DNA of 22,077 nucleotides from a virus, in IMG/VR virus record IMGVR_UViG_3300042294_000075, positions 1-22,077 of that record, one strand, 5' to 3'. The notes below the pieces were generated by a model. It was not told the DNA's origin, searched no databases, and worked only from the letters and a program-made list of their open reading frames with translations. This document shows, piece by piece, positions 17,665-22,077 of this stretch (its first letter is position 1; each line of letters starts with the position of its first letter). The position numbers and the translations under genes were made by a program.

Positions 17665-19725
17665 TTATCTGACAACAGGCTGAATTTGCTCACCTTGTGC
17701 GGCTTGTTGGGCTGCTTCAATCTCTGTCATCACCATATTCTGTTGCTCGACTCCGGTCTTGGCAAGGGTTTCGGCAGTCTTTGCCTTAGCCAACCCTGCG
17801 TCTGCCACGGTCTTAATGACGCTTGCTCTGGCCTGCGCTGCCTTAGCCGTTGCCTCTTCAGCCGCTGCCTGCAGGAATATTGAGTTTGCATCAACCTGTT
17901 GACTTTGCATTTGCTGCTCTTGAGCGAGCATCTCAGCCTCTTGCTCTGTCGGTTTGACAACGCCCAGGCGCAACAGTTGCTTACGGAAGAAGTCTCTCAC
18001 ATCGCCAATGCCTTCACCTTCCATGTTCATCATGGCCATCGCTTGTAGGACTTGCTTGGTCTGTGGATCGTCGGTGATCGCCATCATGCCTGTCAAAGCA
18101 CGAACGGTTGCCGCACGCTTGCTTGAACTCGATGGGCCGACATCAACGTTGACATCAAACTTGGCGCGACTCAGGTCGTTTTCCATGATGACCTCGCCAG
18201 TCTCGGACACCTTTGGTCGCATCAACTCAACGGTGCTGACTTCCTCAGTGCGCCCGATAACCTTCATCTTGCGACCTTCTTCCACATAAATGTCTCGCGC
18301 CATGCTCAACCAAATTTCACCTGATCGCTTCATGCCTTTCGCAAAGTTGCTCATGTAAATAAAGGTCTGCATATCCAGACGGGTCTGAATCATCTCGACT
18401 GCTTTGCCTGAGATGTTGCTGACAATTTGCTCACCTTGAGACGATGCGCCCAAGATTTCTTTCATGTCTGATTCGGTGATCTGCAACAATGCCGCCATCG
18501 CTGGTGGGATTTGTGCGCTGCGAGTGTACGCCAGTGGCCCTTGAACCTGAGTGCTGCCATCAGCACCTGTGATCGGATTGACCAACAGGTATGGATAGTT
18601 CTTTAAGTTATCGTCAGCCCACATAATCTGGTGGCCAGCGACTTGTTCAGGAGTCAGGATCGGTTTCTCAACGGATGATAATGCGCTGATCTCACCTAAC
18701 TTTGAGAGCTGCATATTCTTCAGACGCTGGGCATCCTTGGCCAGGCGCACATGACCCATGCAACGCTCAACGTTGTCCACGAACCACCGTTTGCCATACA
18801 CAGGCACAACAGGGATACAGTTGCCAGCGATATATCCTGCATCCTCTAAGACCTTGCCGCCAGACATAATGTACTTACGCACACGATTGCGCTTAATCTT
18901 GCGCTGGCGAACCTCGACGCTGCCAATGGCTAAAAGGGTCTCTTCTAGTGTCTCGTCGTTCCTGAAATCATCCTGACGGTACTTCTCTTCTGTCCCATCG
19001 ATGCTCTGAAAGATACGGATCGTCTCAGCGACTTCCTCGACCTTGAAGTATTCAGCGACAAACACAACATCAGGCGTTGCCCAATCAAACTCGTATTGAT
19101 GGATGATCTTTGGCCAGTCTGTCGGGTCATCGTTGTAGGTTTCTTTGTAACTCTCGCGGGTCATACTGTTGACCACAAAGCAAAACAAAGCGTCCGACTT
19201 GTCCTGGCGTTTCGAGTTCAGGTCAAAGAATACCGAGCTGTCAGCATCAAAGATCGGCTCAAAGATGATGCGCTGGCGGTCATTGTCCTCATCTTCGTCA
19301 TCTTCGTAGACGGTTCTGAGCCTGAATGCGCCAATGCCGCCACCCACTGCTTCTTCAAATGCGTTGTCGTAGGCTTCATTTGCCACCGAGTCCTGCTCGT
19401 CAGCCCTGTAAAGACCATCACAAGTGTCAGCCAGACTATCTTCTGCGCCATCTTTGGCGATGTAATCGACTGTGATTCGGTTGTTTCGGTACTCGTTAAC
19501 AATACGAATGACCGACAGCATGATCTTGTTAACCTCGAAACGAGGCTTATTTTCATACTGATCGTAGAGTGGACCTTCCCATTGTGCGCCGCAAATAGAG
19601 TAAAACCGCCGATCCTGCAAACATTGGAGACGCTCGTCCCGCAGCGCAGTTTGGATGTCGTTGTACTGGCGCAGAGCCTCAGCGTGCAAGTTTGCCAAGC
19701 GTTGATCGGTTGGTATGCGTGCCAT
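17665..19725 (-). CDS. Portal protein, P22 gp1-like
   Basis: 686 residues from ATG 19725 (P22 gp1: 725). The start is set by AGAGGA six bases upstream; the frame stays open 40 codons further, but that part overlaps the terminase end. Family marks: QDRRFYSICGAQWEG, RPRFEVN-type KPRFEVNKIMLSVIRIVNEY, the EAVGGGIGAFRLRT segment, an acidic loop YEDDEDEDNDR (140-150), KRWFVDNVERCMGHVRLAKDA and ESDMKEILGASSQGEQ. The last 90 or so residues are an alanine/glutamine-rich helix, like the C-terminal barrel of the P22 portal. It forms the dodecameric DNA entry/exit ring and contacts terminase and gp4. Confidence 0.9.
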   Translation of the reverse strand: MARIPTDQRLANLHAEALRQYNDIQTALRDERLQCLQDRRFYSICGAQWEGPLYDQYENKPRFEVNKIMLSVIRIVNEYRNNRITVDYIAKDGAEDSLADTCDGLYRADEQDSVANEAYDNAFEEAVGGGIGAFRLRTVYEDDEDEDNDRQRIIFEPIFDADSSVFFDLNSKRQDKSDALFCFVVNSMTRESYKETYNDDPTDWPKIIHQYEFDWATPDVVFVAEYFKVEEVAETIRIFQSIDGTEEKYRQDDFRNDETLEETLLAIGSVEVRQRKIKRNRVRKYIMSGGKVLEDAGYIAGNCIPVVPVYGKRWFVDNVERCMGHVRLAKDAQRLKNMQLSKLGEISALSSVEKPILTPEQVAGHQIMWADDNLKNYPYLLVNPITGADGSTQVQGPLAYTRSAQIPPAMAALLQITESDMKEILGASSQGEQIVSNISGKAVEMIQTRLDMQTFIYMSNFAKGMKRSGEIWLSMARDIYVEEGRKMKVIGRTEEVSTVELMRPKVSETGEVIMENDLSRAKFDVNVDVGPSSSSKRAATVRALTGMMAITDDPQTKQVLQAMAMMNMEGEGIGDVRDFFRKQLLRLGVVKPTEQEAEMLAQEQQMQSQQVDANSIFLQAAAEEATAKAAQARASVIKTVADAGLAKAKTAETLAKTGVEQQNMVMTEIEAAQQAAQGEQIQPVVR

Positions 19726-19730
19726 GTTTA

Positions 19731-19736
19731 TCCTCT
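19731..19736 (-). promoter_or_regulatory. Ribosome binding site fixing the portal start
   Basis: AGAGGA on the minus strand with a five-base spacer before ATG 19725, in the 25-base gap after the terminase stop. It supports MARIPTDQRL as the true N-terminus rather than the longer open frame. Confidence 0.7.
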
Positions 19737-19750
19737 TTGTGCGTATTAAA

Positions 19751-20977
19751 TCACCATTTGTTAGCAACTGGCAAGGGAGTAAAGGTCTGAACCTTAGAAA
19801 TATTAGTTCTCCTGACACCTTCGCAAGCATACCGCAGTGCGTCAATCACATGGTTCTTCTTGTCTTGCAACAGCGGCAACACTCGTCCAGTTAGCGGATC
19901 GGTGCGGTAACTGTACAGACTCAGCTCGTCAATCGTGTGCTTACATCTTGGATGCACCACGATGTCGTAGTTCTTGAGAAACTCGATGCCTTCCTCTACA
20001 GACTTCGCCCCTTTGACTGCACCCATGATCTTAGGAAACCCGTTCTTTCTCATGTGGCTGATGGTCTCTGGTCTTGCTGAGTCTGCCACGATTGGCCACT
20101 TCTCTGCCTCTGGAATGGTCATAAACAGGTCAGGCGTGTTCACAATCTCGCACCCGACCATGTACGCTTCGTAATCAATGTATAGCGTGCGCCCAATAAT
20201 GTGGCATCGCACCAACACTGTCGGATCAATAGCGAATCCCCAATCCGCGCCCAAACGGTGGATCGCCTCTGGTGAGGCTTCAAAATCGTCAATCTTCCAG
20301 TTGCGAAACACCCTGGCGTTGCTGTTTGTTAGATACTGACCTTGCCAGACGTGCTGATACTTGTCTGGGTCTCGCCTTTGGTCGTACTCCATCTCGTCGC
20401 GCAAGACATCGGGAAACCAAGGGTTATCGCTAAAGTTGACCTTGATGACCTGAGCATCCTTTGGTGGCTCAGGACCACGCAGCAGAAAGTCCACAGGATC
20501 GGATTGCTGGCGTGGATTCCATGAGAACCACAGCTCAGAGTCGGGCTTTCGTATCGTTGGGCGCAACAGATCGAGACTCGTCTGGCTTAGGCTCTGGGCT
20601 TCCTCCACCCAGGCGCAATCGTATCCTTCTAGCGATTTAATTGAGTCGCTTGTATGGTTTTGCATACCTTGAAAGATAATCGCGCCATCGCCCTTTTTGG
20701 ACTTGATGACCGCATCTTGAACCTCAAAGTAGGCGCCAGCGTTCATTGCTTGAATCTTTGTCTCAAGCAGGCGTTTGACCGATTGCTGCAGCGACTTCTG
20801 TATTTCACGCACACACACGCTTCGACGCTTCTGATCCATAATGTGAGTCTCGATCATCATCTCAGCAAAGAAATGAGACTTGCCTGAGCCTCGACCGCCC
20901 CAAGCTGCCTTGTATCTGGACGGGTCAAGCAATGGAACAGCCCACTCTGGAGTCTTGAGCTGCAGCGTTTTACCCAT
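19751..20977 (-). CDS. terL: Terminase large subunit, PBSX family
   Basis: 408 residues from ATG 20977. Walker A is GGRGSGKS (27-34); Walker B is CAWVEEA (121-127), with the usual glutamates; WNPR at 153-156 matches the coupling region. The nuclease domain shows GADWGFAIDPT (D245), ADSARPE (D299) and HVIDALRYA (D379), the three metal-binding acidic positions of this family, with HPRCKHTIDELSLY between. It cuts concatemers and pumps DNA into the head through the portal. P22's own large subunit is of a different length and type, so the packaging motor was likely exchanged. The start overlaps the small-subunit stop by 8 bases, with no clear Shine-Dalgarno sequence; an upstream TTG (21007) is less likely. 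Confidence 0.93.
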   Translation of the reverse strand: MGKTLQLKTPEWAVPLLDPSRYKAAWGGRGSGKSHFFAEMMIETHIMDQKRRSVCVREIQKSLQQSVKRLLETKIQAMNAGAYFEVQDAVIKSKKGDGAIIFQGMQNHTSDSIKSLEGYDCAWVEEAQSLSQTSLDLLRPTIRKPDSELWFSWNPRQQSDPVDFLLRGPEPPKDAQVIKVNFSDNPWFPDVLRDEMEYDQRRDPDKYQHVWQGQYLTNSNARVFRNWKIDDFEASPEAIHRLGADWGFAIDPTVLVRCHIIGRTLYIDYEAYMVGCEIVNTPDLFMTIPEAEKWPIVADSARPETISHMRKNGFPKIMGAVKGAKSVEEGIEFLKNYDIVVHPRCKHTIDELSLYSYRTDPLTGRVLPLLQDKKNHVIDALRYACEGVRRTNISKVQTFTPLPVANKW

Positions 20978-21395
20978 TCTTGACGATGACACGCTCAATC
21001 TTGGCAAATTCTAGGGGCGCACCATCTGCACCCGTTAGCTCATGCTTTTGCGTCTCAGCCCAGCGCATTTGGGTCTTTGACCACCAGATCATGGCTGTGG
21101 TATCGCCGCCCATCGCCTTCTGGAATAGCGTCTTGCCCACTTGAGCGTTTGCCTTGGACTTACCAGACACCAGCTCAGAGCTAAAGTGCGCCCTCAAAGT
21201 GTCAATGTGGATTCCATCCCGTACCAATGCGCCAATCTGGTCAATTGGTAGTCCGTATCCAGACAAGGCTTCGACCTGTTTGCGCTCGGCTTCTGTCGGT
21301 ACAAAGGCTGGTCTGCCTGCGCCTGAACGCGCTCCACCATTTGGACCTCGCTTTTTTAGTGGTGGTTTTTCAGTTATTTGTTTCTTTGCTGCCAT
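20970..21395 (-). CDS. Terminase small-subunit-like DNA-binding protein
   Basis: 141 residues. A basic N-terminal tail with GARSGAGRPAFVPTEAER leads to a helix-turn-helix-like stretch (50-71, PIDQIGALVRDGIHIDTLRA, HF). The continuation (SELVSGKSKANAQVGKTLFQ, then AMGGDTTAMIWWSKTQMRW) is the usual pattern of proteins placed just before PBSX-type large terminases. It would recognise phage DNA and load the motor. GGAGG lies six bases before the ATG, and its start overlaps the methyltransferase by 26 bases. The C-terminal 25 residues are family-typical spacer. A general phage DNA-binding regulator is a weaker alternative. Confidence 0.78.
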   Translation of the reverse strand: MAAKKQITEKPPLKKRGPNGGARSGAGRPAFVPTEAERKQVEALSGYGLPIDQIGALVRDGIHIDTLRAHFSSELVSGKSKANAQVGKTLFQKAMGGDTTAMIWWSKTQMRWAETQKHELTGADGAPLEFAKIERVIVKNG

Positions 21396-22077
21396 GTGAA
21401 ACCTCCGCGAAAGGTTGACCTGTATCTGCGTGAATTGCTTTCTTACCTGTGAAATCCTGCCACCGTTTAATGATTACATCGCAATACTTAGGGTCTAGTT
21501 CCATTAAATATGAAACACGACCATTCTTTTCTGCTGCAATAAGTGTTGTTCCGCTACCACCAAACAAATCCAAAACAATATCACCACCCTTTGTATTGTT
21601 TAGCATTTGATACTCAAACAATGCCACAGGCTTCATCGTTGGGTGCTCACCGTTACGAGATGGCTTATCAAACTCCAATATGGTTGTTTGCTTTCTATCT
21701 GAAGCCCACAGATGTCCAGAGCCATCTTTCCAACCATACAGACAAGGCTCGTGCTGCCAGTGATAATCTTGCCTGCCCATCACCAATGATGATTTTTTCC
21801 ATATTAAGCATTGACGCACTTTCCATCCAGCGTCATTGATTGCCCCTCTGAAGTTGTAACCCTCTGAATCTGCGTGCCATATATAAAAAACAGCACCTGC
21901 TTTCATCACAAAATCAGCGGTAACAAACGCATCCCGTAAAAACTGACGAAAGCTATCATCATCCATACTGTCATTTTGAATGGTTAAACTATTTTTAGTT
22001 TTTCCCACGTATGAAACATTGTACGGAGGGTCAGTCAGCAGCATATCTACCCCCCCCCCCCCCGCAAGTTTTGTCAC
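21370..22077 (-). CDS. Beta-class DNA methyltransferase (N6-adenine or N4-cytosine), 5' end outside window
   Basis: 235 codons visible, open to the right edge. The GTG at the edge reads as an internal valine, because family members have more sequence before this point (often a ParB-like domain, which I cannot see). Motif IV is DPPY (16-19, in LLTDPPYNVSYVGK) and the SAM-binding motif I is LDLFGGSGTT (169-178), with HPTMKP at 145-150; this order (IV before I) is the beta class. It would methylate phage DNA, protecting it from host restriction or marking it. Four glycines just before DPPY come from a run of 14 G. It ends within the small-terminase start. Adenine is the likelier target (DPPY). 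Confidence 0.9.
   Translation of the reverse strand: MTKLAGGGGVDMLLTDPPYNVSYVGKTKNSLTIQNDSMDDDSFRQFLRDAFVTADFVMKAGAVFYIWHADSEGYNFRGAINDAGWKVRQCLIWKKSSLVMGRQDYHWQHEPCLYGWKDGSGHLWASDRKQTTILEFDKPSRNGEHPTMKPVALFEYQMLNNTKGGDIVLDLFGGSGTTLIAAEKNGRVSYLMELDPKYCDVIIKRWQDFTGKKAIHADTGQPFAEVSHGSKETNN
22050..22063 (-). repeat. 14-base G homopolymer inside the methyltransferase frame
   Basis: The plus strand shows 14 consecutive C. On the coding strand this is GCG, four GGG codons and the first base of GTA, upstream of DPPY by six codons. Loss of one G would create TAG right after the tract; gain of one would run into TGA seven codons later. It is either a contingency locus or an assembly/sequencing artefact near the edge. 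Confidence 0.9.

Follow-up and report, generated by a model that had tools for sequence, protein, structure and literature searches.

Can a homopolymeric G tract in a phage genome switch a DNA methyltransferase on and off, or is such a run an accident of sequencing, of decoding or of codon use? The question was raised by the end of IMG/VR virus record IMGVR_UViG_3300042294_000075 (positions 1 to 22,077; this whole stretch of 22,077 nucleotides is referred to below as the window). A sequence-only reading had reported a 14-G run shortly before the catalytic DPPY motif of a methyltransferase and had proposed phase variation, with a poly-G sequencing artefact at the contig edge as the alternative. 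Phage methyltransferases are usually seen as fixed antirestriction tools. If switching is random, methylated and unmethylated particles would occur within one phage population; annotation would split or miss methyltransferase genes in genomes carrying the gene in its OFF state, phage methylome surveys would see mixtures, and switching could help phages past hosts with different DNA-cutting defenses.

Position, frame, and genomic context of the tract

The following features of the window, all on the minus strand, are relevant here (L006 is a second contig of the same phage):

21370..22077, minus strand: DNA methyltransferase gene, 3′ part (235 codons); Pfam PF01555 and PF02195; phrog_498, E = 2.1e-176
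22050..22063, minus strand: 14-G homopolymer tract, encoding the GGGG loop ahead of motif IV (L006 protein, residues 186-189)
22018..22032, minus strand: catalytic motif IV, DPPYN, read directly and invariant in 85 aligned relatives
21550..21576, minus strand: SAM-binding motif I, VLDLFGGSG, after motif IV, read directly from the translation (F, G, S, and G invariant)
20970..21395, minus strand: terminase small subunit, directly downstream and overlapping the end of the methyltransferase gene; phrog_309, E = 1.4e-13
19751..21007, minus strand: terminase large subunit; phrog_3717, E = 2.2e-60
17665..19845, minus strand: portal protein; phrog_156, E = 1.7e-140

The tract reads as exactly 14 C on the plus strand (14 G on the coding strand), and the contig ends 14 bases from it, truncating the methyltransferase gene. 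The missing 5′ part, with the ParB_N domain, is present in L006 (1000-2247), where the whole gene encodes ParB_N (PF02195, above the cutoff in this copy; the domain lies outside the window) followed by N6_N4_Mtase (PF01555, E = 2.1e-24). Motif IV precedes motif I, which is the beta-class order, and the gene qualifies as a beta-class amino-methyltransferase with a ParB_N domain. Its best phage family is phrog_498 (“DNA methyltransferase”), which holds ParB_N + N6_N4_Mtase phage methyltransferases and of which it is a member, being alike over its whole length. A gene for a major head protein was also found among those after the methyltransferase, and the occurrence of both terminase subunits, portal, and major head protein beside the methyltransferase indicates a tailed phage. 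Unlike the window gene, most phrog_498 members near its protein use mixed codons for the loop and are without a tract, as is the closest GenBank phage (MW202867, 82% identity). Streptococcus pyogenes prophages with two methylase pieces (Javan476) were considered as possible frameshift cases, but no G tract was found in them, so their methylase split has another cause.

Direct reading of the three frames bore out what had been proposed for them. With 14 G the frame is open (GCG GGG GGG GGG GGG GTA GAT ATG), with 13 G a TAG stop follows right after the tract (GCG GGG GGG GGG GGG TAG), and with 15 G translation meets a TGA a few codons on (...GGT AGA TAT GCT GCT GAC TGA), meeting the criterion of a repeat inside the reading frame whose other lengths give a truncated product. 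The reported length and position of the run were exact, as was its placement shortly before the catalytic motif (17 nt from the tract to DPPYN, GAC CCT CCG TAC AAT). The run was also correctly described as otherwise unmatched in the window: all eight 7-G matches fell within the tract (100 dinucleotide shuffles: mean 1.04, maximum 6), which is the sole G/C run of ≥7 bases in the window and the sole run of ≥10 in the record.

The tract in other contigs of the same phage

Exactly 14 G were found in three further contigs of this phage. L006 (IMGVR_UViG_3300044675_001202; 4595 bp) carries the tract at 1554-1567 and is identical to the window over 3056 bp; L259 (3300034062_000832) carries it well inside a 13.4-kb contig (26 mismatches to the window in 6395 bp); and L190 (3300049595_000437), with 14 mismatches in 7555 bp, starts 8 bases before it. 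These three contigs, with the tract in the interior of L006 and L259, rule out the edge artefact that had been put forward as the alternative, and the G14 tract is real. No length variation was seen within the window's own lineage among these four contigs (a small sample), all of which are G14 and thus ON, so that switching in this lineage is inferred from relatives.

Recurrence of G tracts at glycine loops

To establish how often such tracts occur, 79 relatives were fetched by protein similarity only, blind to the tract. The longest G run before DPPY was bimodal (2-3 in 74/79, 10-14 in 5/79, none between), and nine other relatives had 8-14 G at a second site, the ParB_N loop that precedes AGHGR, with no locus carrying both. 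The sequence-only reading had named mixed glycine codons and invariant length in homologues as the observation that would refute a switch; close homologues are indeed mostly without a tract, but those bearing one do vary in length. All 14 G/C runs of ≥10 bases in 417 kb of relatives lay inside the methyltransferase gene, which makes up 24% of that sequence (P = 1.6e-9). Downstream of DPPY, GGG accounts for 8.8% of glycine codons. Scans for ≥8 G just before DPPYN or AGHGR in viral contigs and genomes yielded at least 198 unique alleles (about 200, a minority from other enzymes) at the first, catalytic site and about 45 at the second, ParB site, with tract lengths of 8-19 across about 240 alleles of both sites. 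Callable second-site alleles comprised 24 in frame and 20 out of frame.

Second-site tracts (8-19 G) occur in L010, L011, L012, L023, L035-L038, L044, and L303-L357, which are relatives without the motif IV tract. One of the 14 long runs is a C10 in L077 (1532-1541), in frame and encoding prolines in the stretch that links the ParB_N domain to the methyltransferase domain; it may be a third switch site.

The L006 protein as modeled by AlphaFold (mean pLDDT 85.5, 85 sequences) had a predicted fold matching CcrM, RsrI, M1.HpyAVI, and M.BceJIV. In this model, the four tract-encoded glycines form a loop between helix 178-185 and strand 190-195, which leads into DPPY, and the second tract site corresponds to loop 49-52 between two ParB_N strands. 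Judging from the model, loops of this kind can accept extra glycines and the gain or loss of whole codons; G12 and G15 alleles, both in frame within one cluster (L110, L146), fit such tolerance. The loop is glycine-rich also in relatives without a tract (KLMGG, KLTDG), and the run might accordingly be no more than the neutral outcome of encoding a glycine loop with G+C-rich codons, out-of-frame alleles then being ordinary broken genes. Neutrality fits poorly, however, with the bimodal run lengths, the low use of GGG elsewhere in the gene, the two alternative sites, and the strong clustering of long G runs within this gene.

Length differences between near-identical contigs

Among pairs of contigs with flanks ≥99% identical, tract length differed in 8/10 and reading state in 4/10, versus 1/10 for other runs of ≥7 bases in the same alignments; at 97-99% identity, 8/12 pairs differed. 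Pairs share members and are not independent, and one of the ten ≥99% pairs consists of two tandem genes in one genome (L238). Contigs identical around the tract were merged before pairs were counted, so the differing share is an upper bound. The cleanest pairs, each drawn from two different IMG datasets, were L150 (G10, OFF) and L258 (G9, ON), with 0 mismatches in 1550 bp; L111 (G10) and L157 (G8), with 0 mismatches over 3149 bp; L144 (G10, OFF) and L253 (G9, ON), 99.9% identical; and, at the second site, L341 (G11, OFF) and L355 (G12, ON), 99.7% identical, and L347 (G13) and L354 (G11), with one mismatch in 4030 bp. Identical pairs of equal length also exist (L198 and L203, both G8 and identical over 7401 bp), and L158 and the Streptococcus equinus genome L204 are both G8. 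Isolates showed both states as well (Limosilactobacillus portuensis, G8, ON; L. urinaemulieris, G9, OFF).

These differences bear on the possibility that RNA polymerase or the ribosome slips on the G run in a programmed manner, yielding two products (ParB_N only and full length), and that the run is not a mutational switch. Long runs can cause transcriptional slippage, and the first site lies between the two domains, so a truncated product would be ParB_N-like. A programmed site should nonetheless keep a constant length, whereas near-identical genomes differ. Moreover, the second site cuts inside ParB_N, and a comparable tract in C5-methyltransferases (below) sits in a gene with another domain makeup, so the sites do not share a useful truncated product. 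Programmed slippage is thus a highly improbable substitute for mutational switching, although it could coexist with it, in which case OFF alleles might leak some enzyme.

ON and OFF alleles in viral contigs and genomes

Callable alleles at the first site of the ParB-type gene (n = 169) were in frame in 104 cases and out of frame in 65. In OFF alleles, translation stops at a median of about 5 codons past the tract. No early downstream stop was found in any of the 65 OFF alleles (62 open for ≥180 codons, 3 cut by the contig end), so these are not decaying pseudogenes; as far as can be told from sequence, intact downstream frames in all OFF alleles would be consistent with high-frequency reversible switching within a clone. 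Contigs are consensus sequences without reads, and mixed lengths inside one population are therefore not shown.

Viral contigs were ON in 100/145 cases (45 OFF), far above one third (93/135, P = 6e-17). Contigs from bacterial genomes and MAGs (L203-L246) were mostly out of frame (4 ON and 20 OFF unique alleles; 7/27 ON if copies identical to viral contigs are included), and the ON share differed between viral and genome contigs (Fisher's exact test: P = 2e-6 for 93/42 versus 4/20; P = 5e-5 for 93/42 versus 7/20). Terminase, portal, or head genes lay close by at 10 of the 16 genome loci examined, marking these as either prophages or phages co-binned with the genome. Most simply, selection would favor ON in phages and act little in prophages; the two collections differ in many ways, however, and the comparison is only suggestive. 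A MAG classified as a Methanomethylophilaceae archaeon contains an out-of-frame G12 copy (L242) next to a terminase gene.

The genome-contig copies, mostly OFF and near the one third ON expected without selection, fit a neutral by-product, while the lack of downstream decay in 65 OFF alleles is not what ordinary broken genes would show. As a general account we regard neutrality as very unlikely; it has most to recommend it for the shortest tracts (G8).

It is also possible in principle that the tracts, or at least their length differences, are homopolymer artefacts of sequencing or assembly. G runs are hard to sequence, only consensus sequences were at hand, and several contigs, among them the window, stop near the tract (13 tracts lie no more than 100 bases from a locus end, against about 6 expected at most). 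Random length errors would, however, leave about one third of alleles in frame, and 69% were found to be so. The same length of 14 recurs in four contigs of one phage, two of them with the tract well inside; exact agreement in length was seen in many other independent pairs (L198/L203 and L158/L204 among them); the two Limosilactobacillus isolates show that coherent ON versus OFF states are not confined to assembled metagenomes; and the tracts are restricted to three protein loops. We give an artefact only a very slim chance of explaining the data.

With tracts recurring at varying lengths in hundreds of related phages and the enzyme left either readable or broken, these phages probably flip their methyltransferase at random, and we hold with considerable confidence that the tract is a slipped-strand mutation hotspot making the phage DNA methyltransferase phase-variable. 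Under this model, the G run would gain or lose bases by slippage during DNA copying. One length class in three would keep the frame and give the full ParB_N + methyltransferase protein (ON); at other lengths translation would stop shortly past the run, in most cases short of the catalytic DPPY, leaving no active enzyme (OFF). Since nothing else in the gene is damaged, the change would be reversible, and descendants would be with or without enzyme according to frame. By encoding a short glycine loop just before the DPPY strand, the run would occupy a site tolerant of whole-codon changes. The original proposal of phase variation is thus upheld for the family (a recurrent loop, differing lengths, ON and OFF both common, OFF frames intact) but finds no variation to support it in the window's own lineage. 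Counting against phase variation are the error-prone nature of homopolymers in sequencing and assembly, the lack of activity or methylation data, and the absence of a tract from most close relatives; a high slippage rate within one population, the activity of the enzyme, and its purpose are all inferred.

Tracts in other methyltransferase classes

A G15 run was found in frame just after the catalytic PCQ of a C5-cytosine methyltransferase that one of the relatives carries in addition (L088, 6688-6702). Phage C5-methyltransferases in viral contigs (L088, L255, and L373-L491) provided at least 120 stretches with this arrangement, from which at least 111 unique alleles with 8-17 G after PCQ were read, varying in length and frame, although ON and OFF calls in this class are rougher because the longest downstream frame was taken. 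Outside the C5 tract, a single mismatch in 5998 bp separates L088 (G15, ON) from L255 (G13, OFF), and both have G10 at the other tract. The recurrence of tracts at three glycine-tolerant loops in two enzyme classes, near the catalytic part or ahead of it, is the pattern to be expected from repeated selection for a switch.

Genome contigs L217, L238, L233, L205, L211, and L239 encode methyltransferases resembling type III mod (EGDNLEVLKLL ... DPPYNTG), in which G tracts occupy the same pre-DPPY loop; L238 has two tandem copies (G12 and G9). The DPPYNTG loci in genomes were left out of consideration, since they are probably type III mod genes of the chromosome, a class already known to phase-vary.

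Relation to known phase-variable systems

Repeat-switched methyltransferases are well known in bacteria, for instance a type IIG enzyme of Campylobacter jejuni (PMC4889913), a poly-G type III enzyme of Helicobacter pylori (PMC12003011), and type III mod genes. They likewise switch frame by homopolymer length and methylate stochastically. Those systems are chromosomal restriction-modification genes, in contrast to the orphan phage gene described here, which belongs to another family and lies next to the terminase; a tract in the pre-DPPY loop or the ParB_N domain is a feature of the phage gene, unlike bacterial phase-variable methyltransferases. Among phages, Campylobacter Fletchervirus members carry hypermutable polyG tracts that switch receptor-binding proteins (Sorensen et al. 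2021, Cell Rep 35:109214, as cited in PMC11868660 and PMC11959909). The resemblance lies in phage genes switched by polyG slippage with mixed progeny, and the difference in that Fletchervirus switches receptor-binding proteins in phages of one polyG-using bacterial genus, as opposed to DNA methyltransferases in phages of many phyla. No report of phase-variable phage methyltransferases was found in the open-access literature, which is weak evidence of absence, and the words “phase variation” are absent from a gut phage methylome paper. The mechanism is therefore already known, while its occurrence in the ParB_N + N6_N4_Mtase phage gene class, for which no report was found, is likely new but, with the search limited to open-access sources, not certain.

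Modification that protects DNA from one enzyme can expose it to another (PMC12707154). Since methylation guards against enzymes cutting unmethylated sites and exposes DNA to type IV enzymes, a mixed population would hedge, and the most likely purpose, which is inferred, is hedging between two kinds of host, those cutting unmethylated DNA and those attacking methylated DNA. We lean, without firm conviction, towards the broader view that phase-variable methylation is a widespread phage strategy, in which phages of many phyla have repeatedly acquired hypermutable G tracts in the loops of two or more unrelated classes of methyltransferase (two loops of the ParB_N-fused amino-methyltransferase, and after PCQ in the C5 class), sometimes with two switches per genome (L088), ON being favored in phages and the tract unselected or OFF in resident prophages.

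G9 runs were also observed in other cytosine-methyltransferase-like frames (L095, 4248-4256 and 4716-4724; L235, 7720-7728; L223, 3018-3026). Among the few long G runs outside methyltransferases is a G13 in frame in another phage gene of L152 (9602-9614; PRPENGGGGVNLPDPLASYHRR).
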